Origin: Hydrogenophaga sp.
Lineage (GTDB): Bacteria; Pseudomonadota; Gammaproteobacteria; Burkholderiales; Burkholderiaceae_C
DNA: 64,000 nt
Direction of reading: 5' to 3'
NCBI RefSeq assembly: GCF_018780385.1
Contig: NZ_JADMJO010000014.1
Coordinates: 1 to 64,000, forward strand
Under the pieces are notes generated by a model that was given only the letters and a program-made list of their open reading frames with translations, searched no databases and had not been told where the DNA came from. This document shows positions 36,784-48,661 of the stretch, in pieces. The position numbers and the translations under genes are program-made. Position 1 is the stretch's first letter, and each line of letters opens with the position of its first letter.

Positions 36784-37572
36784 CTAGGGCTCGATGGCCC
36801 GGGCCAGCGCCGCCTGAAGCTCGGCGGCCAACACCTTCAGGGAACCGGAGAGCTCGCGCACAACGCGGGGCAGTGGCTCTTCCGTCGAGACGCTGATGTT
36901 CAACACGTAGACGCCCTCCGCGGTGATCAGGGGCGTGGCCAGTGCCACCACCTCGGGTTGCCAGGACGCCGCACAGAAGCCCTGCTCCTGCACCTGCTGG
37001 ATGGCGGCGTGGATCTCGGCCTGCACCTCGCGCCAATGGCCGCCACCGCGTCGCTGGAACACCTCGAACAGCGCCTTTCTCCGGGCAACTGAAACGGTCG
37101 ACAGGTAGGCCCGTCCGAGCGAGGTGAGCTCCATCGGCACCCGCTGGCCCGAGACCACGTTCCTCAGCGCCACACGGCGGTTGTAGCGGATGGATTCCAG
37201 GTACACCATCTCGTCGTTGTCGGGCGCCGCCAGGCCGACGTTGATGTGCCGGCTTTCGGCCAACGCCCTCATCAGGGGTGCTGCCACCGCCAGCACCGTC
37301 GAGCCCGCGCGCATGGCGTGCGCGAAGCTCAGCACCGGCGGGGCCAGCCGGTAGGCCCTGCGTTGCGCATCGTGCTGCAGCATGCCGGCCGTCACCAGGG
37401 TCTGTGTCAGGCGGCTGATGGTGGAGGGCGACAGGCCCGTGCGCTCCGCCAGGTCGCCATTGCCCAGCCAGTTGGAGCCGGGCCGGAACGCCCGCAGGAT
37501 CTCGATGCCGCGGACCAGCGACCGGTTGGTGGGGGAGGCGCCGAACTTGTCGCCAGGTGGCAGGATTTTCAT
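36784..37572 (-). CDS. IclR-family transcriptional regulator
   Basis: A 262-residue IclR regulator. The winged helix spans ~15-80 (RSLVRGIEILRAFRPGSNWL, ERTGLSPSTISRLTQTLVTA); the effector domain follows (HINVGLAAPDNDEMVYLESI, RVPMELTSLGRAYLST). ATG 37572 matches the family length. It is divergent from the TTT-receptor operon at 37686, and a perfect palindrome (37593-37611) lies between. The same palindrome recurs at 44504, so this gene probably controls two operons. Confidence 0.9.
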   Translation of the reverse strand: MKILPPGDKFGASPTNRSLVRGIEILRAFRPGSNWLGNGDLAERTGLSPSTISRLTQTLVTAGMLQHDAQRRAYRLAPPVLSFAHAMRAGSTVLAVAAPLMRALAESRHINVGLAAPDNDEMVYLESIRYNRRVALRNVVSGQRVPMELTSLGRAYLSTVSVARRKALFEVFQRRGGGHWREVQAEIHAAIQQVQEQGFCAASWQPEVVALATPLITAEGVYVLNISVSTEEPLPRVVRELSGSLKVLAAELQAALARAIEP

Positions 37573-37592: not shown

Positions 37593-37611
37593 CATTCCAC
37601 TCAGTGGAATG
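37593..37611. promoter_or_regulatory. Palindromic operator, probably for the IclR regulator
   Basis: CATTCCACTCAGTGGAATG: nine-base arms around one central base, perfect. It lies 21 bases from the IclR start and about 75 bases before the TTT-receptor ATG. ATTCCACTCA-R-TGGAAT also occurs at 44504-44522 upstream of the other TTT receptor. Binding is inferred. Confidence 0.65.
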
Positions 37612-37685
37612 ATCGGGATGCAAATGCAGGGGATCAACCGTAGCATTCTCCTGCGGCACACACCGCGCACACAAGGAGACATTCC

Positions 37686-38663
37686 ATGCAGATTTCCCGC
37701 CGAACCACCGCCATGCGACTGGGCTTCCTCATCGCGTCGGTGCTGCTGGTCGCCCCCAACGCCATGGCCCAGGTCTCCGACAAACCCATTCGCCTGGTGG
37801 TGCCGTTTGCGCCCGGCGGTGGCACGGACCTGATTGCGCGAACCCTCGGCCTGGGCATGTCCAGGGAGCTCGGCCAGACGGTGGTGATCGAGAACAAGCC
37901 CGGCGCGGGCACCATCATCGGCACCGACATCGTGGCCAAGAGCCCGGCCGACGGCAACACGCTGGTGATCGCGACGTTTGCACACGCCGTGAACCCCAGC
38001 CTGATGCAGAAGCTGCCCTACGACAACGACAAGGCCTTCACGCCCGTGATCCTGATCGGCAAGGGCCCCAACGTGCTGGTGGTGCGGGCCGAGAGCCCGT
38101 TCAAGTCCGTCAAGGACGTCCTGGATGCGGCACGGGCCAACCCGGGCAAGCTCAACTACGCGTCGCAGGGCAATGGCACCTCGGCACACCTGGCGGGCGA
38201 GATGTTCGACAACCTGGCGAAGGTCAAGACCACCCACGTGCCCTACCGGGGCGCCGGTCCCGCGCTCACCGATCTGCTCGGCGGCCAGGTCGACATGATC
38301 TTCGGCACGGCCACCGCCGTGTCCTCGGGCCTGGAGAGCGGCAAGCTGCGCGCCTTGGCTGTGACCGGCGCCGAGCGCTCGCAGGTGCTCAAGAACATCC
38401 CGACCATCGCAGAAACCATTCCGGGCTACGTGATGGAAAGCTGGTATGGCCTGTACGCCCCCGCAGGCACGCCGCCGGAGGTGATCGCCCGACTGAACGC
38501 CGCCGCGAAGAAGGCCGTGGCCACGGACGATTTCCGCAAGAAGGTGGAACAGGAAGGCCTGGTGATCAGCGCCGGCGCACCGTCCGAACTCGACACCTAT
38601 GTGCGATCGGAAGAAGCGCGCTGGCGCAAGATCGTCAAGGAAAACAACATCACTGCCAACTGA
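37686..38663 (+). CDS. TTT-family (Bug) periplasmic solute receptor
   Basis: A 325-residue receptor with a signal peptide ending APNAMA/QVSD. Family features are IRLVVPFAPGGGTDLIARTL, GQTVVIENKPGAGTIIGTDI, GKLNYASQGNGTSAHLAGEM and GTPPEVIARLNAAAKK. AAGGAG precedes ATG 37686. It heads an operon with a hydratase, an acyl-CoA synthetase and a hydrolase, so it likely captures a carboxylate that is then CoA-activated. No membrane components of the transporter are nearby. Confidence 0.93.
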   Translation: MQISRRTTAMRLGFLIASVLLVAPNAMAQVSDKPIRLVVPFAPGGGTDLIARTLGLGMSRELGQTVVIENKPGAGTIIGTDIVAKSPADGNTLVIATFAHAVNPSLMQKLPYDNDKAFTPVILIGKGPNVLVVRAESPFKSVKDVLDAARANPGKLNYASQGNGTSAHLAGEMFDNLAKVKTTHVPYRGAGPALTDLLGGQVDMIFGTATAVSSGLESGKLRALAVTGAERSQVLKNIPTIAETIPGYVMESWYGLYAPAGTPPEVIARLNAAAKKAVATDDFRKKVEQEGLVISAGAPSELDTYVRSEEARWRKIVKENNITAN

Positions 38664-38682
38664 ATCCACGCCTGGAACACAC

Positions 38683-39474
38683 ATGACCGCCTCATTGATC
38701 GATCTGCAGGTTGACACCGGCATCGCCACCCTCACGCTGAACCGGCCCGACAAACGCAACGCCATGAGTGATGCCATGCGCGCCGAGTTCATCGACGCCC
38801 TCGAACATGTCGCCGCGGACAAGGCCATTCGCGCGCTGGTGCTGACCGGCGCGGGCAAGGGTTTCTGTGCGGGAGGTGACATCTCCGGCATGGAGAAGCG
38901 CATGAACGCGCCCACCGGCGAGATCGCCTTCAACGGCTGGCATCGGCAGCAGCGCGTGCACCACACCCAGACGCTGTTGCACACCATGCCCAAGCCGGTG
39001 ATCGCGGCCGTCAACGGCGCCGCTTCGGGCCTGGGCGCCGACACCGCGCTGGCCTGCGACTTCATCATCGCCAGCGAGTGGGCCAGCTTCACCTGGTCCT
39101 ACATCCACCGCGGCATCATTCCCGATGGCGGCGGCATGTACTTCCTGCCGCGCCGGGTGGGCCTCTCAAAGGCGAAGCAGCTCATCTTCACCGGCCGCAA
39201 GGTGGATGCCGACGAGGCACTTGCGCTGGGCATCGCCGACCGCAAGACCACGGCCGACACGCTGGTGGCCGACGCGCAGGCCTGGGCCCGCGAACTGAGC
39301 CAGGGTTCGGCGACCGCGCTCGCGCTGAGCAAGACCATCCTGAACCAGACCTTCGAACTGCCGGCGCAACAGGTCTTCGCCCAGGGCAGCCAGGCCCAGG
39401 GCATCTGCTACACGAGCACCGAGCACCGCGATGCGGTGATGGCCTTCCTGAACAAAGCGGCTGCCAAGGAATGA
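38683..39474 (+). CDS. Enoyl-CoA hydratase/isomerase family protein
   Basis: A 263-residue crotonase-fold protein: TLNRPDKRNAMSDAMRAEF, GAGKGFCAGGDISGMEKRM and GAASGLGADTALACDFIIAS form the two oxyanion-hole regions, followed by FTWSYIHRGIIPDGGGMYFL with an acidic residue near the usual catalytic site. It lies 19 bases after the receptor and overlaps the next gene (ATGA). Exact reaction unknown; it should act on the CoA ester made by its neighbour. Confidence 0.88.
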   Translation: MTASLIDLQVDTGIATLTLNRPDKRNAMSDAMRAEFIDALEHVAADKAIRALVLTGAGKGFCAGGDISGMEKRMNAPTGEIAFNGWHRQQRVHHTQTLLHTMPKPVIAAVNGAASGLGADTALACDFIIASEWASFTWSYIHRGIIPDGGGMYFLPRRVGLSKAKQLIFTGRKVDADEALALGIADRKTTADTLVADAQAWARELSQGSATALALSKTILNQTFELPAQQVFAQGSQAQGICYTSTEHRDAVMAFLNKAAAKE

Positions 39475-41570
39475 ACCCAGTGAACCCGATTTCCCGGTTG
39501 ATGCGCCCGCGCAGCGTGGCCGTCATCGGTGCATCGGCCGATGCGGGCAAGACCGCCGGCCGCCCGATCGCCTACCTGCGCAAGCACGGCTTCGAGGGCG
39601 ACATCTACCCGATCAACCCGCGCGTGGACCACATCGACGGCCTGCGCTGTTACCCCGACGTGGCCTCGCTGCCTGCTGTGCCAGACGTGGGCATCGTGCT
39701 GCTCGGCGCCGAGCGCGCCCACAAGGCCGTGCAGGACCTGTCCGTGCGTGGCACGGCGGCGGCCATCGTGCTGGCCAGCGGCTACAGCGAAACCGGCGAA
39801 GAAGGCGTGCGCCGGCAGGTCCAGCTGATCGAAGCCGCGGGCGCCATGCGCATCCTCGGTCCCAACACGATCGGCCTGGTCAACCTCACTGACAGCATCG
39901 TGCTCTCGGCCAGCGGTGCGCTCGAGATGGACCACTTCCCGGTCGGTTCCGTGGGCGTGGTCTCGCAAAGCGGCGGCATCCTGGGTGCGCTGCTCTCGCG
40001 CGCCGCGCCGCGAGGTATCGGCCTGTCCAAACTCATTTCCACCAGCAACGAAGTCGATCTGGACCTGGCCGACTTTGTCGACTACCTGGCCGACGACGAG
40101 GCCACCAAGGTGATCGCGCTGTACGTGGAAAGCGTGCGCCACCCCGAGAGGTTCCGCCAGGCGGCCCTGAAGGCAGCCCGTGCCGGCAAGCCGGTGGTGG
40201 CGTTCAAGATCGGCCGCTCCGAGGCGGGCGCCAAGGCCGCCGTCTCGCACACCGGCGCGCTCGCGGGCGCGGACCGCATGTACGACGCGCTGTTCCGGGA
40301 AGTGGGCGTGATCCGGGCGCAGACCTTCGGCGACTTGCTCGACATCCCGGTGGCGCTGTCCACCGGCCGGGTGCTGCGCGGCAAGCGCGTGGCCATCCTC
40401 ACCTCCACCGGGGGCGCCGGCACGCTGGTGTCGGACAGCTACGGCGTCTCGGGGTTCGACACGCCGGCGCCGGACGAAACCACCGCCGCGCGCCTGCGCG
40501 CCCTGCAGACCGGCGACCACGCCGCGCTGGACCGCAACCCGATCGACGTGACCCTGGCCGGCCTGCAGCCAGACCTGTTGCGCGGGGCCATCCGGGCCTT
40601 GCTCGAGAGCCCCAGCTACGACGCGCTCACCATCATCGTGGGCTCCTCCAGCCTGGCCATGCCGGAACTCATGGCCGGAGCCATCCAGGACTGCCTGCCG
40701 CTGAGCGACAAGCCGGTGATCGCCTTCGTGAGCCCGCACGCGCCGGAGGTGGCCGCGCTGTTGACGCAGCGTGGCGTGCCGGCCTTTGCTTCCGCCGAAA
40801 GCTGCACCGTGGCGCTCACCAGCATGCTGCAGACCCACCGCTGGAGCGAACCGGCCGCCGCGTCGACAGGCCAGCCGGTGTCGGTGCACGACATTCCCGG
40901 CGGTTCGCTGAACGAGGCCGAATGCAAGCAGCTGTTCACGCGCTTCGGCATCCCCTGCACGGCCGAGACGGTGGTGAGCACGCCCGCTGAAGCCGAGCAG
41001 GCCGCGCGCACCCTGGGCGAGCGGGTGGTGCTGAAGATCCTGACGGGCGAGATCACGCACAAGAGCGATGTGGGTGGCGTGGCCGTCAACGTGCCCGCCA
41101 CCGCCGTGGGCGAGCGCCTCACCGCCATGGCCGCCGACGTGCAGGCCAAGGCCGGGGTGACACCCACGCGTTTTCTCGTTCAGGAAATGGTGTCCAGCGG
41201 CACCGAGCTCATCCTCGGCATGCACCGCGATGTGCTGGGCACGGCCATCCTGCTGGGCATGGGCGGTGTGACCGCCGAACTCTTCAAGGACACGACACTG
41301 CGCATGCTGCCGCCGGAGGGTGGTCTGAGCCGGGAAGTGGCGGCCGGGATGGTGCGGGAGCTGAAAACCTGGCCGCTGCTCGATGGCTACCGGGGCCGGC
41401 CCAAGGCCGATGTCCAAGCCCTCGTCTCGGCCATCGTCGCGTTCTCGCAAATGACCGCGCAGCTCGGCGAGCGCCTGATCGAGGCCGAGATCAACCCGGT
41501 GTTCGTGCTGGCCGAAGGCCAGGGCGTGAAGGCCGCCGACGGCGTGGTGGTGCTCGCCCCCGCCGGCTGA
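39471..41570 (+). CDS. Acyl-CoA synthetase, NDP-forming type
   Basis: A 699-residue fused two-part ligase. The N-terminal CoA-binding Rossmann domain (~1-140: RSVAVIGASADAGKTAGRPI, YPINPR) and succinyl-CoA-ligase-like domains (VSQSGGILGALL, SHTGALAGADRMYD) are followed by an ATP-grasp domain from ~480 (VVLKILTGEITHKSDVGGV, LGMGGVTAELFKDT). It would convert a carboxylic acid to its CoA ester with ATP giving ADP and phosphate. ATG overlaps the hydratase stop. Confidence 0.9.
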   Translation: MNPVNPISRLMRPRSVAVIGASADAGKTAGRPIAYLRKHGFEGDIYPINPRVDHIDGLRCYPDVASLPAVPDVGIVLLGAERAHKAVQDLSVRGTAAAIVLASGYSETGEEGVRRQVQLIEAAGAMRILGPNTIGLVNLTDSIVLSASGALEMDHFPVGSVGVVSQSGGILGALLSRAAPRGIGLSKLISTSNEVDLDLADFVDYLADDEATKVIALYVESVRHPERFRQAALKAARAGKPVVAFKIGRSEAGAKAAVSHTGALAGADRMYDALFREVGVIRAQTFGDLLDIPVALSTGRVLRGKRVAILTSTGGAGTLVSDSYGVSGFDTPAPDETTAARLRALQTGDHAALDRNPIDVTLAGLQPDLLRGAIRALLESPSYDALTIIVGSSSLAMPELMAGAIQDCLPLSDKPVIAFVSPHAPEVAALLTQRGVPAFASAESCTVALTSMLQTHRWSEPAAASTGQPVSVHDIPGGSLNEAECKQLFTRFGIPCTAETVVSTPAEAEQAARTLGERVVLKILTGEITHKSDVGGVAVNVPATAVGERLTAMAADVQAKAGVTPTRFLVQEMVSSGTELILGMHRDVLGTAILLGMGGVTAELFKDTTLRMLPPEGGLSREVAAGMVRELKTWPLLDGYRGRPKADVQALVSAIVAFSQMTAQLGERLIEAEINPVFVLAEGQGVKAADGVVVLAPAG

Positions 41571-41577
41571 GGCACGC

Positions 41578-42483
41578 ATGCGGATCGACCCGGTCGACAA
41601 CGACGCACAGGCTCGCGCGCTGATCGACAACCTGTCTGCCCGGGCCCGCACCGAACGGGTGGCCTGGTCGGGCGGTCAGGTCTGCTGGCGCGGCTTCGGC
41701 CGCGGCACCCCGGTGGTGCTGGTGCACGGCGGCCATGGCAACTGGTTGCACTGGGTGCGCAACATCGAGGCGCTCGCCGCGCACCACACCGTGTGGGCGG
41801 TCGATCTGCCGGGCTTCGGCGACTCGGATGTGCCCGACGGCGAGGGCATGGCCTCGCTGCTGGCCCCGACGCTGTCCACGCTGGACGCCCTCATCGGCCC
41901 CGACACGCCGGTGAACCTGGTGGGTTTCTCGTTCGGCGGCCTCGTCGCGGCGCACCTGGCCGCGCAACGGCCCCACGTGCAGCGCCTGGTCCTGCTGGGC
42001 ACCGGCGGTCACCAGGGTCGCCGACGCCCCAAAGGCGAGTTGACCAACTGGAAGCCGGCGTGGCGCGAGGGCGATGCGGTAGCGCTGGAGCAGGCGATGC
42101 GCCACAACCTGGCGATGCACATGCTCAGTGGAGCGGCGGCCGACCTGGACGCGCTGGCGGTCCGGGTGCACACCGATGCTTGCGTGCGCACCCGGTTTCG
42201 CAGCAAGGACATCTCGCGCGCCGGTGGTCTGGTGGAGGTGTTGGCGCACTGCCCGGGGCCGACCTGGCTGGTCTGGGGCGAGCATGATGTGACGGCCGAC
42301 CCGGACAACATCGCCCCGGTGCTGGCTTCGGCCCTGGTTGACGGACGCAGCGACGTGGTGGACGCTGCCGGTCACTGGGTGCAGTACGAGCGGGCCGACG
42401 CGGTCAACCCGATGCTGCTGGCCTGGCTCGGGAGCGCAGCCGAAGCGCCGATCACCTCGCCACGGACAGCGCCGCGGGGTTGA
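41578..42483 (+). CDS. Alpha/beta hydrolase
   Basis: A 301-residue hydrolase: oxyanion segment VVLVHGGHGNWLHWVRN, nucleophile in NLVGFSFGGLVAAHLA, acid in LVWGEHDVTADPD, base in DAAGHWVQYE. It could be a C-C bond (ring-cleavage product) hydrolase or esterase. GAGG before the ATG. Last gene of the + operon; its 3' end overlaps the convergent dehydrogenase gene by 32 bases. Confidence 0.85.
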   Translation: MRIDPVDNDAQARALIDNLSARARTERVAWSGGQVCWRGFGRGTPVVLVHGGHGNWLHWVRNIEALAAHHTVWAVDLPGFGDSDVPDGEGMASLLAPTLSTLDALIGPDTPVNLVGFSFGGLVAAHLAAQRPHVQRLVLLGTGGHQGRRRPKGELTNWKPAWREGDAVALEQAMRHNLAMHMLSGAAADLDALAVRVHTDACVRTRFRSKDISRAGGLVEVLAHCPGPTWLVWGEHDVTADPDNIAPVLASALVDGRSDVVDAAGHWVQYERADAVNPMLLAWLGSAAEAPITSPRTAPRG

Positions 42484-43426
42484 CCACCCCGGTCAAGCGG
42501 CCTTGCGCGAACGCGACGATGTTGTCGAACGCGATGCCGAAGTAGCGCTCGTAGTTGTCCTTCTCCACATAGCCGATGTGCGGCGTGCACAGCACGTTCG
42601 GCAGCGCCAGCAAGGGATGGCGGGCACCGAGCACCGGCTCTTGTTCGTACACGTCCACGGCGGCAAAGCCGGGCCGGCCACGCGCCAGCGCGTGTTCGAG
42701 AGCGCCGGGCGCGATCAGCTCGGCGCGGCTGGTGTTCACCAACAGCGCGGCGGGCTTCATGCGCGCGAGGTCGTCCGCCGTGACGATGCCGGTGGTCTCG
42801 GCGCCGAGCCGCACGTGCAGGCTGATCACGTCGCTCTGCGCAAAGAAGGCGTCGCGCGAGGGCGCCACTTCGAAGCCATCGGCGCGCGCGGCGGCGGTGG
42901 ACGCCTCGCGGCCCCACACCCACACCTGCATGCCGAATGCCCTGCCGTAGCCCGCCACCTGGCGGCCGATGCGGCCATAGCTCCACACGCCCAGGCGCTG
43001 GCCGCTGAGCTGCTGGCCCAGGTGGCCCTGCCACTTGCCCTCGCGCAAGCGGTTCGCTTCACTCACCAGGTGGCGCCGGCTGGCGAGCGCCAGCGCCCAG
43101 GCGATCTCGGCCGTGGCCGAACCCGCGCCGCTGCCTTCGGTCACCAGCACGCCGCGCGCGGTACAGGCGTCCAGATCCACATGGCCGGCCAGCTTGCCGG
43201 TCTGGCTGATGAGGCGCAGCCGGGGCAACCGATCGAGCAGCGCGGCGTCGATGCGCGTGCGCTCGCGCGTCAGCACAATCGCCTCGGCATCGGCGAAGCG
43301 CTCGGCCAGGGCGTCGGTGCCTTTCACCGTGTCGTTGAACACGCGAACGTCGTGCCCAGCGAGCTTGCCGAAGCAATCGAGGAGGCGAACGCAGTCCTGG
43401 TGGTCGTCGGGAATGACGATGCGCAT
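42452..43426 (-). CDS. D-2-hydroxyacid dehydrogenase (NAD-dependent)
   Basis: A 324-residue dehydrogenase of the phosphoglycerate-dehydrogenase superfamily. The NAD site is VWSYGRIGRQVAGYG (147-161); the catalytic residues are R234 in VNTSRAELI, E263 in YEQEPVLG and H283 in TPHIGYVE. It would interconvert a D-2-hydroxyacid and a 2-oxoacid. It follows the - strand TTT receptor by 5 bases, so the receptor's ligand may be a hydroxy- or oxo-acid. Confidence 0.88.
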   Translation of the reverse strand: MRIVIPDDHQDCVRLLDCFGKLAGHDVRVFNDTVKGTDALAERFADAEAIVLTRERTRIDAALLDRLPRLRLISQTGKLAGHVDLDACTARGVLVTEGSGAGSATAEIAWALALASRRHLVSEANRLREGKWQGHLGQQLSGQRLGVWSYGRIGRQVAGYGRAFGMQVWVWGREASTAAARADGFEVAPSRDAFFAQSDVISLHVRLGAETTGIVTADDLARMKPAALLVNTSRAELIAPGALEHALARGRPGFAAVDVYEQEPVLGARHPLLALPNVLCTPHIGYVEKDNYERYFGIAFDNIVAFAQGRLTGVVNPAALSVAR

Positions 43427-43431
43427 GGCGC

Positions 43432-44415
43432 TCACTGCAGGGTGATGCCCAGCTGGTCGACCGTGCGCTTCCACAGCCCCAGGTCCTTGCGCACCAGCTC
43501 GGTGTACTGCTCGGGCGTCATGCCGCCGGCTTCGATGCCGTAGTTCTCGAACAGGTCGCGGATCTCGGCCGACTCCAGCGCCTTCTTCACCTCGGCGTAC
43601 AGCGTCTGCATGACCGGCGCGGGCGTGCCGCTGCGCGCGAACAGGCCGTACCAGCCATGCACGTCGAAGCCGGGGTAGCCTTGTTCGGCCACGGTCGGCA
43701 CATCGGGCAGGCCGGCGAAGCGGCGGGCCGGTGCCACCGCGAGCGCCCGCAGCTTGCCGGTCTTGATCTGGGCCAGCGCGGAACTCATGTCCAGGAACAT
43801 GAACTGGATCTGGCCGCCCAGCAGGTCCTGCACCGCTGGCGCCGCGCCGCGGTAGGGCACGTGCGTGACCTTGATGTCCGCGCGTTGCGCGAACAGCGCG
43901 GCCCCGAGGTGGGCCGAGGTGCCGTTGCCCGACGACCCGTAGTTGATGCTCCCGGGGTTGGCCTTGGCCATCGCCACCAGGGCCGGCAGGTCCTTCGCGG
44001 CGAAGTCGGGGCGCACGACCAGGGCGTGCGGGATGTAGCCCACCACCGTCAGCGGCGAAAAGTCGCGCAGCGTGTCGAACGGGTAGTTCGCCATGAGCGC
44101 CGGGTTGGTGACCGCCAGGATCGACGGGAACACCAGCGTGTGGCCATCCGCGGGCAAACGCGCCACCTCACTCATGGCGATCACACCACCACCGCCGGGT
44201 TTGTTCTCGACGATCACGGGTTGCCCCATGGAGGTCGACAGGCTCTTGCCCACGGCGCGCGCCATCAGGTCGGTCGGGCCACCGGCCGCGAACGGGACCA
44301 GGATGCGGATCGGCTTGGAGGGGAACGCCTGCGCGTGCGCCGCCAGCGGCCATGCCAGGCTGGCGCCGATCACGGCATTGAAACGTCGGCGCGACATGGG
44401 GTGCAGGATCGTCAT
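43432..44415 (-). CDS. TTT-family (Bug) periplasmic solute receptor
   Basis: A 327-residue receptor. The N-terminus has a twin-arginine-like signal (SRRRFNAVIGASLAWPLAAH, then AQA). Mature features are PIRILVPFAAGGPTDLMARA, GQPVIVENKPGGGGVIAMSE, THVPYRGAAPAVQDLLGG and GTPAPVMQTLYAEVKK. ATG 44415 is preceded by GAGAGA; ATG 44397 is an alternative. The operator-like palindrome at 44504-44522 lies about 90 bases upstream. Confidence 0.92.
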   Translation of the reverse strand: MTILHPMSRRRFNAVIGASLAWPLAAHAQAFPSKPIRILVPFAAGGPTDLMARAVGKSLSTSMGQPVIVENKPGGGGVIAMSEVARLPADGHTLVFPSILAVTNPALMANYPFDTLRDFSPLTVVGYIPHALVVRPDFAAKDLPALVAMAKANPGSINYGSSGNGTSAHLGAALFAQRADIKVTHVPYRGAAPAVQDLLGGQIQFMFLDMSSALAQIKTGKLRALAVAPARRFAGLPDVPTVAEQGYPGFDVHGWYGLFARSGTPAPVMQTLYAEVKKALESAEIRDLFENYGIEAGGMTPEQYTELVRKDLGLWKRTVDQLGITLQ

Positions 44416-44503
44416 GGTTGTCTCTCTTGTTTGGGGTTGTGCCGGGATGCGGCTTCCATGGAGACTTGAGCTTAGGCGGCCTGCCCGGCAAACGCACCAC
44501 CTC

Positions 44504-44522
44504 AATTCCACTCAATGGAATT
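44504..44522. promoter_or_regulatory. Palindromic operator matching the one at 37593
   Basis: AATTCCACTCAATGGAATT: seven-base arms (AATTCCA/TGGAATT) around CTCAA. It shares ATTCCACTCA-R-TGGAAT with 37593-37611. It lies between the - strand TTT-receptor operon and the LysR gene's 3' side, placing the receptor operon under the same regulator. Inferred site. Confidence 0.62.
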
Positions 44523-44595: not shown

Positions 44596-45516
44596 TCAGT
44601 TTTTCCAGAAGTCCGCTCGCGCGTACTCGTGCTTGAGGAAGTCGATCCACAGGCGCACGCGCAGCGCCAGGTGTTTGCGCTGCGGGAACAGCGCAAAGAT
44701 GCCGTTGGGCGGCGCGGCAAATTCGTCAAGCACGCTCACCAGCCGCCCGGCCGCAATGTCGGCCTCCACCTCCCAGGTGCTGCGCCAGGCGATGCCGTAG
44801 CCAGCCAGGCACCACTCGTGCAAGACCTGGCCGTCGGTGCAGTCCAGCGGGCCGCCGGGGCGCAGGTGGGTGATGGTGGTCTCGCCAGACTCTTCAGGCA
44901 TGGCGAAGGCCCAGCCGCGCGTTTGTGATGCGTCACTGGAGAGCGTGAGGCAATCAAAGCGCACCAGATCCGCCGGCGTTTGCGGCTTGCCGTGGTGCTG
45001 CAGGTAGCGCGGCGTGGCCACGCAGAGGCGGCGGTTTTCGGCGAGGCGCACGCTCACCAGCGACGAATCGGGCAGGTCGCCCACGCGCACCGCGCAGTCG
45101 TAGGCCTCACCGGCCACGTCCACCACACGATCGCTGAGGTTGAGCGAGATCGTCACCTCGGGGTGCAGTTCGCGAAAGTGCGGCACGAGTGGCGCCACAT
45201 GGCGGCGGCCAAAGCCGGCCGGCGCGGTGATGCGCAGGTGCCCGCTGGCTTTCACGCCCCCGGCACTCACGCTGGCCTCGGCGTTGGCCAGGTCGGTCAG
45301 CAGGCGGTGGCAGTCTTCGAGGAAGGCGCTGCCTTCGTGGGTGAGGGTGATGCGCCGCGTGGTGCGCACCATGAGCTTCACGCCGAGGCGGGCTTCGAGG
45401 GCGTCGAGTCGGCGCCCGATGATGGCCGGGGCCACGCCCTCGGCTTTGGCGGCGGCGGTCAGGCTGCCACGCGTGGCCACCGATGCGTAGGTTTCGAGTT
45501 GTTTGAGTTTGTCCAC
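44596..45516 (-). CDS. LysR-type transcriptional regulator
   Basis: A 306-residue LysR regulator of the DsdC/CrgA-like group: LETYASVATRGSLTAAAKAE then VAPAIIGRRLDALEARLGVK for the winged helix, GHLRITAPAGFGRRHVAPLV opening the effector domain, and CLAGYGIAWRSTWEVEADIA near the end. The start is GTG 45516. It lies downstream of the CoA-transferase/lyase genes on the same strand, 63 bases away; target unknown. Confidence 0.87.
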   Translation of the reverse strand: MDKLKQLETYASVATRGSLTAAAKAEGVAPAIIGRRLDALEARLGVKLMVRTTRRITLTHEGSAFLEDCHRLLTDLANAEASVSAGGVKASGHLRITAPAGFGRRHVAPLVPHFRELHPEVTISLNLSDRVVDVAGEAYDCAVRVGDLPDSSLVSVRLAENRRLCVATPRYLQHHGKPQTPADLVRFDCLTLSSDASQTRGWAFAMPEESGETTITHLRPGGPLDCTDGQVLHEWCLAGYGIAWRSTWEVEADIAAGRLVSVLDEFAAPPNGIFALFPQRKHLALRVRLWIDFLKHEYARADFWKN

Positions 45517-45579: not shown

Positions 45580-46770
45580 TCAGGCGGCTTTTGCCACCGT
45601 CTGGCTGAGGCGCGCGGCGTCTTCGGCCGCGTAGCCCAGCTCGGCCAGCAGCTCGGCGCTGTGTTCCCCCAGGCGCGGCGGGCTGCGCCGCACGCCCAGG
45701 CGTTCGCCGTCGAGCGCGAGCGGCAGCAGCACGGTCTGCGCGGTCTGGCCGGCACGCTCGCCGTCGGGCAGGGTGATGGGTGCCAGGCCGCCGGTGGCGC
45801 AGAGGTGCGGGTCGTCCAGCAGCTCGTGGGGTTTGGTGATGGGTGCAAACGGCAGACCGTGGCGCTCGAACAGTGCGGCCAGATCGGCAGCGCTTTGCAG
45901 CGCCAGGCGTTCGCGCAGCAGCGGAATGAGCCAGTCGCGGTTGCGCACGCGGTTGTTGTTGCCCAGCAGTCGCGGGTCGGCCTTGAGGTCTTCATAACCG
46001 AAGGCATCGCAGAAGATGGCCCACTGCGTGTCGCTCACCACGGCCAGGAAGATCTGCTCGTCGTCCTGAACCTTGAACACGTCGTAAATGCCCCAGGACG
46101 AAATGCGATCGGGCATGGGCGCGGCGGGCTGGCCGGTGACGGCGAACTGCATCATGTGCTGCGCCACCAGGAACACGTTGTTCTCGAACAGCGAGCTCTG
46201 CACCTCGCTGCCCACGCCGGTTTTCTCGCGCGCACTGAGCGCGGCCATGACGCCGATGGCGCCAAACAGGCCGCCCATGATGTCGTTCACCGACGAACCC
46301 GCGCGCAGCGGATCACCCGGGCGCCCGGTCATGTAGGCCAGGCCACCCATCATCTGCACCACCTCGTCGAGCGCGGTGCGGTGGTCGTACGGGCCGGGCA
46401 GAAAACCCTTGTGGCTCACATGAATGAGGCGCGGGTTGAGCGTCTTCAGGCTCTGGTAGTCCAGGCCCAGCTTCTTCATGGTGTCGGGCTTGAAGTTCTC
46501 GCTCACCACATCGGCGGTGGCGATCAGCTTGAGCACGGCCTCTTTGCCTTCGGGTGATTGCAAGTCGAGCACCAGACTCTTCTTGTTGCGGTTGAACAGC
46601 GGGTAGAAGCCCGCGCCCGAGCCGAGCAGGCGGCGCGTGTTGTCACCGGCCGGCGGCTCGACCTTGATGACCTCGGCCCCCAGATCGGCCAGCACCATGC
46701 CGCAGGTGGGGCCCATGACCATGTGGGTGAATTCAACGACGCGCAGGCCTTCGTATGGGAGTTTTGTCAT
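45580..46770 (-). CDS. CaiB/BaiF family III CoA-transferase
   Basis: A 396-residue CoA-transferase: LRVVEFTHMVMGPTCGMVLA, LGAEVIKVEPPAGDNTRRL, NKKSLVLDL, ENFKPDTMKKLGLDY, and D163 in GSSVNDIMGGLFGA at the place of the catalytic aspartate. ATG 46770 opens the conserved part. It follows the HMG-CoA-lyase-like gene with a repeat between them, so the pair probably makes and cleaves a 3-hydroxy-3-methyl-type acyl-CoA. Confidence 0.87.
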   Translation of the reverse strand: MTKLPYEGLRVVEFTHMVMGPTCGMVLADLGAEVIKVEPPAGDNTRRLLGSGAGFYPLFNRNKKSLVLDLQSPEGKEAVLKLIATADVVSENFKPDTMKKLGLDYQSLKTLNPRLIHVSHKGFLPGPYDHRTALDEVVQMMGGLAYMTGRPGDPLRAGSSVNDIMGGLFGAIGVMAALSAREKTGVGSEVQSSLFENNVFLVAQHMMQFAVTGQPAAPMPDRISSWGIYDVFKVQDDEQIFLAVVSDTQWAIFCDAFGYEDLKADPRLLGNNNRVRNRDWLIPLLRERLALQSAADLAALFERHGLPFAPITKPHELLDDPHLCATGGLAPITLPDGERAGQTAQTVLLPLALDGERLGVRRSPPRLGEHSAELLAELGYAAEDAARLSQTVAKAA

Positions 46771-46790
46771 GTTGCAGGAATGGTGAGGGG

Positions 46791-46862
46791 GCTTCGACAA
46801 GCTCAGCCCGAACGGAGGGGTATGGCGATCACAAAAATCCGTTCATCCTGAGCTTGTCGAAG
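46791..46862. repeat. Inverted pair of a dispersed 25-base repeat
   Basis: Two ~25-base arms (46791-46816 and 46838-46862) are inverted copies built on CTTCGACAAGCTCAG / CTGAGCTTGTCGAAG, matching at about 22 of 25 positions. A single arm, identical to the left one, lies at 60290-60314. The right arm overlaps the 3' end of the lyase gene and supplies its last codons and stop. The pair can form a hairpin and may end or attenuate transcription. Confidence 0.7.
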
Positions 46863-47799
46863 GACTCGACGGGTGGTGGTGAGCAATCCAACCCTTGGGC
46901 AGGCCGGCTTCGGGCGTCATGCCGTACACCGGTTCGCCGGGCAGGCCGGCCATGAGCGGTTCGCGCGCGGCGATGAGTTTTGTGATGTCGATGCCGGTGC
47001 GCACGCCCATGGCCTCGAACATGAAGACCAGGTCTTCGGTGACCACATTGCCCGAGGCACCGGGCGCATACGGGCAGCCGCCCAGCCCGCCGAGCGAGGC
47101 ATCAAACGTGCGCACGCCCACGTCAAAAGCGGCCAGGCAGTTGGCCAGGCCCAGGCCGCGCGTGTTGTGCATGTGGGCCGCGCCCGCGCGCTCGCCCAGC
47201 TCGGCGCGCAGCCGCGTGAACAGGCGGCGCACCTGCGCCGGGTTGGCCATGCCCGTGGTGTCCGACAGGCCCACTTCGTCTGCACCCGCATTCACACAGG
47301 CCACGGCCAGGCGGATCACGTCGTCTTCATCCACCGCGCCCTGCAGCGTGCAGCCGAAGGCGGTGGACAGCCCTACCTCCATGGCCACGCCGGGCGCCGT
47401 GTCGCGCCGCAGCGCGTGCACCTCGCGCAGCTCGTCGAGCATCTGTGCGGGGGTCTTGCGCACGTTGGCCATGGAATGCGCTTCGCTCACCGACACCGGC
47501 AGGGTGATCTTGAGCACGCCCGCGGCCAGCGCGGCCTCGGCGCCACGCCGGTTGGGCACGAGCGCCATCACCATCAAGCCGGGGTGTTGCAGGGCGTGTT
47601 GCACCAACGCGGGCGCGTCCGCCATTTGCGGCAGCAGCTTGGGCGGCACGAAGGAGCCCACCTCGATCTCGCGCAGGCCGGCCGCCACGAGCGCGTCGAT
47701 CCAGCGCAGCTTGTCGGCCGTGGGCATGGTCGCCTTGACGGACTGCAGACCGTCGCGCGGGCCGACTTCGCTGATGAGGACTTCGGGGGTGTTGTGCAT
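46843..47799 (-). CDS. Hydroxymethylglutaryl-CoA lyase family protein
   Basis: A 318-residue aldolase-type lyase of the HMGL/DRE-TIM family: EVGPRDGLQSVK (11-22, with catalytic R15-D16), EVGSFVPPKLLPQM, AFGCTLQGAV, HMHNTRGLGLANC (metal-binding His pair) and the signature GLGGCPYAPGASGN with C242. It could cleave HMG-CoA or a related 3-hydroxyacyl-CoA. The last residues (SPSTSSG and stop) come from the dispersed repeat. Divergent from an IclR gene. Confidence 0.88.
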   Translation of the reverse strand: MHNTPEVLISEVGPRDGLQSVKATMPTADKLRWIDALVAAGLREIEVGSFVPPKLLPQMADAPALVQHALQHPGLMVMALVPNRRGAEAALAAGVLKITLPVSVSEAHSMANVRKTPAQMLDELREVHALRRDTAPGVAMEVGLSTAFGCTLQGAVDEDDVIRLAVACVNAGADEVGLSDTTGMANPAQVRRLFTRLRAELGERAGAAHMHNTRGLGLANCLAAFDVGVRTFDASLGGLGGCPYAPGASGNVVTEDLVFMFEAMGVRTGIDITKLIAAREPLMAGLPGEPVYGMTPEAGLPKGWIAHHHPSSPSTSSG

Positions 47800-47841
47800 G
47801 TGAAACCGGAGGAAATCGGCTGAAATCTGGCTTTGGCTTGC

Positions 47842-47858
47842 GTTCTGTCAGACAGAAC
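47842..47858. promoter_or_regulatory. Palindromic operator between lyase and IclR genes
   Basis: GTTCTGTCAGACAGAAC: perfect eight-base arms around one base. It sits in the divergent gap (47800-47914), 43 bases from the lyase start and 57 from the IclR start, where IclR proteins bind. It differs in sequence from the 37593/44504 sites, so it should belong to the regulator at 47915. Confidence 0.65.
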
Positions 47859-47914
47859 AGTATTCTCTCTGCTGGAAGAATCGCAGATCGCCCCAACGCT
47901 GTCAACCCAAGCCC

Positions 47915-48661
47915 ATGCCGCGCAAAGCACAAACCCCGTCACTGGCCGACGCCAACGCCGCCACCGGCGGTACCGCCGCGGTGGACCGCGCGCTCTCGCT
48001 GCTGGGCGCGTTCCGCGCGGGCGATGCGGCCTTGTCCCTGGCCGAGCTGGCCGAGCGCACGCAGCTCTACAAAAGCACCGCCCTGCGCCTGCTCGCCTCG
48101 CTCGAACACGCGCACCTGCTGCAGCGGCTGGACGACGGGCGCTACGCCCTGGGTGGTGAGGTGGCGCGGCTGCACGGCATCTACGCCGCGTCGTTTTCGC
48201 TGGACCGCATCGTCATGCCCGTGCTGCGCCAACTGGTGGCCGCCACCGGTGAGAGCGCGGCCTACCACGTGCGCCAGGGCCAGGCGCCAAACCAGACGCG
48301 CCTGTGCCTCTACCGCGTGGACTCACCGCACCCCGTGCGCGACCACATCCGCGCCGGCGAGGTGCTGCCGCTGCACCAGGGCACGGGCGGACGCGTGTTA
48401 TCTGCCTTTGGCGCGGGCGACGACAGCCGCAAACCCACCACCGCCGAGAAACGCATCCACGCCCGCATCCGCGCCGACGGCTTCATGACCGCCGTGGGCG
48501 ACCGCCTGGCCGAAGTGGCCGGCATCTCGGCGCCGGTGTTCCATGCGGACGGCTCGATTGCCGCCGCGCTCACGCTCACGATGCCGGCGCACCGGTTTGA
48601 TGAGCGGCATGTGGGCAAGGTGTTGGCGGCGGCGCGGCAACTGGGGGGTCGGGTGGGTTAG
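47915..48661 (+). CDS. IclR-family transcriptional regulator
   Basis: A 248-residue IclR regulator: AAVDRALSLLGAFRAGDAAL, ERTQLYKSTALRLLASLEHA for the winged helix, then the effector domain (GESAAYHVRQGQAPNQTRLC, PLHQGTGGRVLSAF, GDRLAEVAGISAPVFHADGS). Divergent from the lyase/CoA-transferase genes, which it likely controls. The ribosome site before ATG 47915 is weak. Confidence 0.88.
   Translation: MPRKAQTPSLADANAATGGTAAVDRALSLLGAFRAGDAALSLAELAERTQLYKSTALRLLASLEHAHLLQRLDDGRYALGGEVARLHGIYAASFSLDRIVMPVLRQLVAATGESAAYHVRQGQAPNQTRLCLYRVDSPHPVRDHIRAGEVLPLHQGTGGRVLSAFGAGDDSRKPTTAEKRIHARIRADGFMTAVGDRLAEVAGISAPVFHADGSIAAALTLTMPAHRFDERHVGKVLAAARQLGGRVG

Follow-up and report, generated by a model that had tools for sequence, protein, structure and literature searches.

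Two matching palindromes as predicted operators of one IclR regulator at an acid-uptake locus of Hydrogenophaga

Gene layout and the two palindromes

The 64,000-nucleotide stretch analysed here (positions 1 to 64,000 of contig NZ_JADMJO010000014.1, Hydrogenophaga sp. assembly GCF_018780385.1; hereafter the window) carries two matching palindromes, one beside the gene of an IclR-family regulator and the other upstream of an operon that runs towards the operon next to the first. As judged from sequence comparison, these palindromes very probably serve as binding sites for a single IclR regulator of two acid-uptake and breakdown operons. The genes and predicted sites are the following.

36784-37572, minus strand: IclR-family regulator, 262 aa from an assumed ATG; HTH_IclR (53.9 bits, cut-off 22) and IclR_C (49.7 bits, cut-off 24) both above cut-off
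37593-37611: predicted operator 1, CATTCCACTCAGTGGAATG; centre 30 bp from the assumed iclR start and 84 bp from the receptor 1 start
37686-38663, plus strand: tripartite tricarboxylate transporter (TTT)/Bug periplasmic receptor 1 (PF03401, 3.9e-77)
38683-39474, plus strand: crotonase-fold enzyme with the PaaG-type Asp (GIIPD), from profile and structure matches
39471-41570, plus strand: nucleoside diphosphate (NDP)-forming acyl-CoA synthetase, 699 aa, SHTGA motif
41578-42483, plus strand: alpha/beta hydrolase, every NCBIfam match below cut-off
42452-43426, minus strand: D-2-hydroxyacid dehydrogenase, 3′ neighbour of the receptor 2 gene
43432-44415, minus strand: TTT/Bug periplasmic receptor 2 (PF03401, 1.8e-70), ATG start assumed
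44504-44522: predicted operator 2, AATTCCACTCAATGGAATT; centre 98 bp from the assumed receptor 2 start

Operon 1 (receptor 1, crotonase, synthetase, hydrolase) is divergent from iclR. Operon 2 (receptor 2, dehydrogenase) converges with it and, as a preliminary description of this DNA had stated, the dehydrogenase and hydrolase genes overlap by 32 bases (42452-42483). The same description had both operons begin with orphan TTT receptors. Indeed, both proteins match PF03401 and, because none of the five TctA permease genes of the genome lies on the window's contig (TctB was not searched for), the receptors are orphans at this locus. The ATG starts of IclR and receptor 2 were assumed, being our choice; longer open reading frames exist, from TTG 37674 for IclR and GTG 44511 for receptor 2, and both would run into the palindromes. 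Against the nearest NCBIfam model, that of the PcaR/PcaU/PobR subfamily (TIGR02431), the regulator scored 101.2, below the curated cut-off of 284.75.

Both palindromes were confirmed, as the 17-mers ATTCCACTCAGTGGAAT at 37594-37610 and ATTCCACTCAATGGAAT at 44505-44521, which differ by one base and have TTCCA-N5-TGGAA in common. The pair is far above chance. With up to three mismatches, the window contained four matches (the two sites on both strands) as compared to 0.06 expected, and four were reached in none of 100 shuffles. No other place in the 5.38 Mb genome matched the 17-mer ATTCCACTCARTGGAAT at zero or one mismatch. The common TTCCA-N5-TGGAA is found at seven places of the genome, the two operators and five others. 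Four of these five are well inside open reading frames called by a script and the fifth lies about 20 bases into a frame that, judged by eye, resembles an acyl-CoA dehydrogenase.

Conservation of the site with the regulator and the second receptor

The preliminary description had proposed a single IclR regulon and had named conservation of the motif at orthologous positions as its test. We ran this test, and the proposal withstood it. The best 80 of the 91 loci found in a regulator scan gave, together with the window, 81 loci. Nearly all of them belong to named Burkholderiales or to bins without such a name, the exceptions being L077 (Pseudomonas), L011 (Pantoea) and L081 (an Akkermansia bin). 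The exact palindrome was present within about 300 bp of the IclR gene or of a receptor- or crotonase-like gene at 67 of the 81 loci, a version with one mismatch at 12 and none at 2. Considering only the 300 bp 5′ of the IclR gene, the palindrome was observed in 56/81 cases, whereas 200 rounds of shuffling gave 0.005 on average and the inside of the gene 0/80. Ten other IclR-related genes (39-56% identical), taken from genomes with an IclR match, showed no palindrome, even when one mismatch was allowed. Among 299 genomes of the family, 34 have an IclR match at E<=1e-40, four of which (G068, G095, G097, G146) show only 40-56% matches and may be without a true orthologue. The sequence ATTCCAYTSARTGGAAT occurred at six places in five of the 299 genomes, the window's included, and all five are among these 34 (Fisher, 1.4e-5).

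The site also goes with the receptor 2-dehydrogenase pair. Close orthologues of the dehydrogenase (E<=1e-140) were found in 8/299 family genomes including the window's, that is 8 of the 34 with an IclR match and 0 of the 265 without (Fisher, 1.3e-8); dehydrogenases at least 84% identical were present in 5 of 67 genomes of the genus. Eight cassettes, in which receptor 2 directly precedes the dehydrogenase and has its own upstream region, were considered as separately transcribed (window, L158, L159, L007, L161, L164, L203, L206). The exact palindrome stands directly upstream of all eight, including some on a contig other than that of the regulator. In genome G340 (L159), contig C76 carries the cassette and contig C73 the IclR operon; read on one strand, the two palindromes have the same 15-mer. 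The cassettes of G255 (L203) and G177 (L206) are likewise on a different contig from IclR; since these three assemblies are drafts, the separate contigs give no physical distance. In a Variovorax locus (L021), the order TTT1-ECH-ACD-TTT2-DHDH stands behind a single palindrome, the cassette continuing the first operon after the ligase gene.

Additional sites were seen next to other genes. Further TTT receptor genes carry their own palindrome (L162 16064, L163 17225, L020 1241, L029 10771, L030 10774), and the regulon seems to recruit extra TTT receptors in several lineages. On the cassette contig of G340, a one-mismatch palindrome (L159 1198-1212) precedes the hydrolase gene; the genes for IclR, receptor 1, crotonase and synthetase are absent there, a different copy of them being on C73. 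Loci of the Paraburkholderia group, among L064-L083, mostly show two palindromes about 45 bp apart ahead of the crotonase-synthetase pair (for example L064, 12206 and 12250); beside this pair lies a gene of the major facilitator superfamily instead of a receptor.

Promoter register and sign of control

To look at the sites in their promoter context, we collected those with exact arms that lie no more than 260 bp from a TTT gene or a crotonase gene. Such sites numbered 97 in the window, in L007-L086 and in 17 of the 18 loci L158-L175, where L160 duplicates L007 and was excluded. The sites of L203 and L206 were included manually, which made 99; L199, whose sequence is that of L009, was not counted. 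Dropping 10 distal members of tandems, 8 of them in the Paraburkholderia group, left 89 proximal sites. The alignment was made on the palindrome alone, and the -10 element played no part in the choice.

A TANNNT motif was located exactly 31 bases past the 15-mer in 83 of the 89 proximal sites and at 30 bases in five more; only the L008 site (9944) has it at neither distance. At other offsets, the motif occurred 0.1 times on average with a maximum of five, at offset 10. Grouped at 70% identity, the sites formed 51 clusters, of which 48 had TANNNT at offset 31 and two at offset 30, against a background of 0.02. All eight separately transcribed cassettes follow the 31-base offset. This exact palindrome-to--10 register is new in this analysis. 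The commonest -10-like hexamer is TAAGCT (52/89). The -35 implied 17 bases before the -10 has a degenerate sequence, roughly GTGC and then mixed bases. The palindrome extends from about -58 to -44, with its centre near -51. The region gave no promoter in a generic sigma-70 scan. In the window, the register places the following elements.

37618-37623, plus strand: predicted weak -35 of operon 1, ATGCAA, at the register position
37641-37646, plus strand: predicted -10 of operon 1, TAGCAT, 31 bases after the 15-mer palindrome
44492-44497, minus strand: predicted weak -35 of operon 2, GTGCGT, at the register position
44469-44474, minus strand: predicted -10 of operon 2, TAAGCT, at the same 31-base offset as in operon 1

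A fixed register, with the operator beside a weak -35, points to activation. An activator placed outside a poor core promoter would require such constant spacing, whereas for a repressor some variation should be tolerable. MhpR, an activator of the IclR family, binds near -58. The register thereby yields a specific prediction, activation by the IclR protein. It also favours the claim of the preliminary description that the regulator switches on both operons, since one -10 register is fixed in the two; that the IclR protein itself does the binding is our inference.

From motif conservation, site sharing, promoter register, gene linkage and co-occurrence, all of which are observed, we infer protein binding, the sign of regulation, autorepression, an effector and a pathway. 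One IclR, the product of 36784-37572 and the proposed activator of both operons, probably binds both palindromes as a dimer and activates both operons, the acid being captured, activated with CoA and passed towards beta-oxidation. The dimer would bind TTCCA-N5-TGGAA at operators 1 and 2, centred near -51 and just upstream of the degenerate -35. With the acid as effector, it would activate two weak promoters, one for receptor, crotonase, ligase and hydrolase, the other for receptor and hydroxyacid dehydrogenase. At operator 1 it likely also represses its own gene, because the centre of that operator is only 30 bp from the assumed iclR start. Once captured by the receptors, the acid would enter through a TTT permease whose gene lies elsewhere, the NDP-forming synthetase would form the CoA thioester, and the crotonase would rearrange this towards beta-oxidation, perhaps to 3-oxoadipyl-CoA.

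Several observations weigh against this interpretation. L041 and L053 are without a site, and some of the 12 one-mismatch versions may be due to chance. The IclR-related genes L220 and L221 (55-56% identity, one a partial match) are without the motif, and at L204, L205 and L207 a dehydrogenase is found with neither receptor 2 nor the motif. The Fisher tests treat loci and genomes as independent, and the counts are uncorrected for phylogeny. Towards iclR there is no register (best offset, 4/51), so that iclR's own promoter was not located. Finally, one paper describes the IclR regulators of catabolism as repressors in the typical case (PMC13273656).

This last point, together with the closeness of operator 1 to the assumed iclR start, speaks for the alternative that the same IclR occupies both sites as a repressor released by its ligand. 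We consider this unlikely, because the operator lies outside the core promoter, the -10 spacing is exact in nearly all proximal sites, the -35 consensus is poor, and nothing comparable to the register exists towards iclR.

Much less probable still is that operator 2 belongs to another regulator of the neighbourhood and that the operons form two separate regulons. The candidates are the following.

44596-45516: LysR regulator, directly upstream of operon 2
47915-48661: second IclR, divergent from a CaiB CoA-transferase/HMG-CoA lyase-like pair

The LysR gene adjoins operon 2 in the window and lies nearby in L158 and L159, as this alternative would have it. However, the cassettes of L007, L161, L164, L203 and L206 keep the palindrome without that LysR adjoining, the best match upstream of the second IclR has two mismatches, and no gene of L009-L086 was labelled as matching either regulator at more than 43% identity. 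Both are therefore disfavoured as owners of operator 2, since neither follows the motif. That the second palindrome is a chance or duplicated copy without function is the least credible account of all: two 17-mers one base apart make a recent copy imaginable, but chance is very unlikely in view of the shuffles, the flanks differ, relatives retain the arms and the -10 but vary in the five-base centre, and the site accompanies cassettes in differing surroundings.

Enzymes, candidate substrate and related systems

The conserved core is the crotonase with the synthetase, usually with a receptor: the crotonase-like cluster was found at 78/81 loci and the synthetase cluster at 74/81. In the window's synthetase, the CoA-binding, Succ_CoA_lig and ATP-grasp domains are all three above cut-off. 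The best solved matches of receptor 1 are Bug27 and related receptors, including terephthalate-binding proteins. Those of the crotonase are 2ej5 and PaaG-type chains, whose Asp is kept at GIIPD; the matched chain 6sla has Asn at this position. The alignments considered were those to 2ej5 and PaaG-type chains; a classical enoyl-CoA hydratase has a pair of catalytic Glu. The name hydratase given in the preliminary description is doubtful, as the crotonase keeps the Asp of PaaG-type isomerases, and the enzyme is possibly an enoyl-CoA isomerase. The term self-contained pathway also proved too strong: the window's two operons contain neither a permease nor a thiolase, and several relatives carry extra enzymes.

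These additions, in the operons of some relatives, are a FadJ-like protein, an MmgE/PrpD protein whose closest solved structure is iminodisuccinate epimerase, and a thiolase. The L162 thiolase reached 716.7 bits against the 3-oxoadipyl-CoA thiolase (PcaF) model, with a cut-off of 597; a profile scan of the genes detected no PcaF-type thiolase in the window's two operons. Because some relatives add a 3-oxoadipyl-CoA thiolase, an acid of the C6 dicarboxylate type is hinted at, and an acid ending as 3-oxoadipyl-CoA is favoured at low confidence. A broader proposal, which we put forward tentatively, is that an unsaturated or substituted C6 dicarboxylate reaches 3-oxoadipyl-CoA by an undescribed route through the NDP-forming ligase and the PaaG-like isomerase, the regulator having repeatedly captured TTT receptors via a promoter module made of the palindrome, the 31-base gap and a TAAGCT-like -10. 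If this were true, the orphan receptors of a common pathway could be recognised by the promoter module itself. In Burkholderiales, many TTT receptors are orphans without a known ligand. Here, the conserved operator and the fixed register group two or three receptors with one enzyme set, so that their common ligand can be sought in one growth or reporter experiment.

Three other substrates were considered. The ferulate route, which uses FerA/FerB-like enzymes, found no support: no hydroxycinnamoyl-CoA hydratase-lyase was seen among the best 25 of 73 family matches or the best 60 of 224 PDB matches. Adipate is unlikely as the locus stands, no acyl-CoA dehydrogenase being among the genes scanned. 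For the thiodipropionate catabolism of Variovorax, a different cluster has been described, in a text that does not mention IclR (PMC6370202).

As a control circuit the locus is well supported but ordinary among bacteria: catabolic operons that have TTT receptors and are governed by an IclR regulator are known. The closest arrangement is that of TphR-TphC in Comamonas, for terephthalate, in which, within the same family of bacteria, an IclR regulator likewise accompanies a TTT receptor and a catabolic operon. The TphR-TphC gene order comprises a dioxygenase route and a single receptor, and is not known to include a CoA ligase and crotonase. The TphR operator, TTTTTGCGCATAGCGCAAAAA, is unlike the window palindrome (PMC8222616, Table 1). 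According to the same table, GenR of Corynebacterium glutamicum, which controls gentisate and 3-hydroxybenzoate genes, has the operator ATTCC-N7(5)-GGAAT; compared by operator alone, it matches the window's outer arms. The subgroup of IclR operators WTTYCRYW3RYGRAAW was described by Suvorova and Gelfand 2021 (PMC8222616). Both window sites fit the arms of these group 1 WTT-11-AAW operators, WTTYCRY and RYGRAAW three bases apart, with the same spacing, whereas their central three bases, TCA, are one off the W3 consensus. That paper also reports that the targets of an IclR regulator are generally its own gene together with one or two adjacent operons. It places TctC (COG3181) among the associated families and links it to aromatic catabolism. 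As for the enzymes, the window crotonase resembles PaaG and keeps its Asp, and a relative's operon has the PcaF-model thiolase; in contrast, the operons of the window showed no ring epoxidase, and activation would be by the NDP-forming synthetase. PaaG-PaaH-PaaJ form the lower phenylacetate route. In literature searches aimed at this gene set, which covered open-licence papers, no matching description came up among the entries listed.

The dehydrogenase has a paralogue, 59% identical, elsewhere in the genome (contig C77, 27644-28648), and similar paralogues, mostly 53-59% identical, occur in nearly all 67 genomes of the genus, 64 of which have at least one match at E<=1e-60. Beyond the LysR gene, window positions 45580-48661, in which the palindrome was not found, hold the CaiB CoA-transferase and HMG-CoA lyase-like pair with the divergent second IclR, and this arrangement is kept in L158 and L159.

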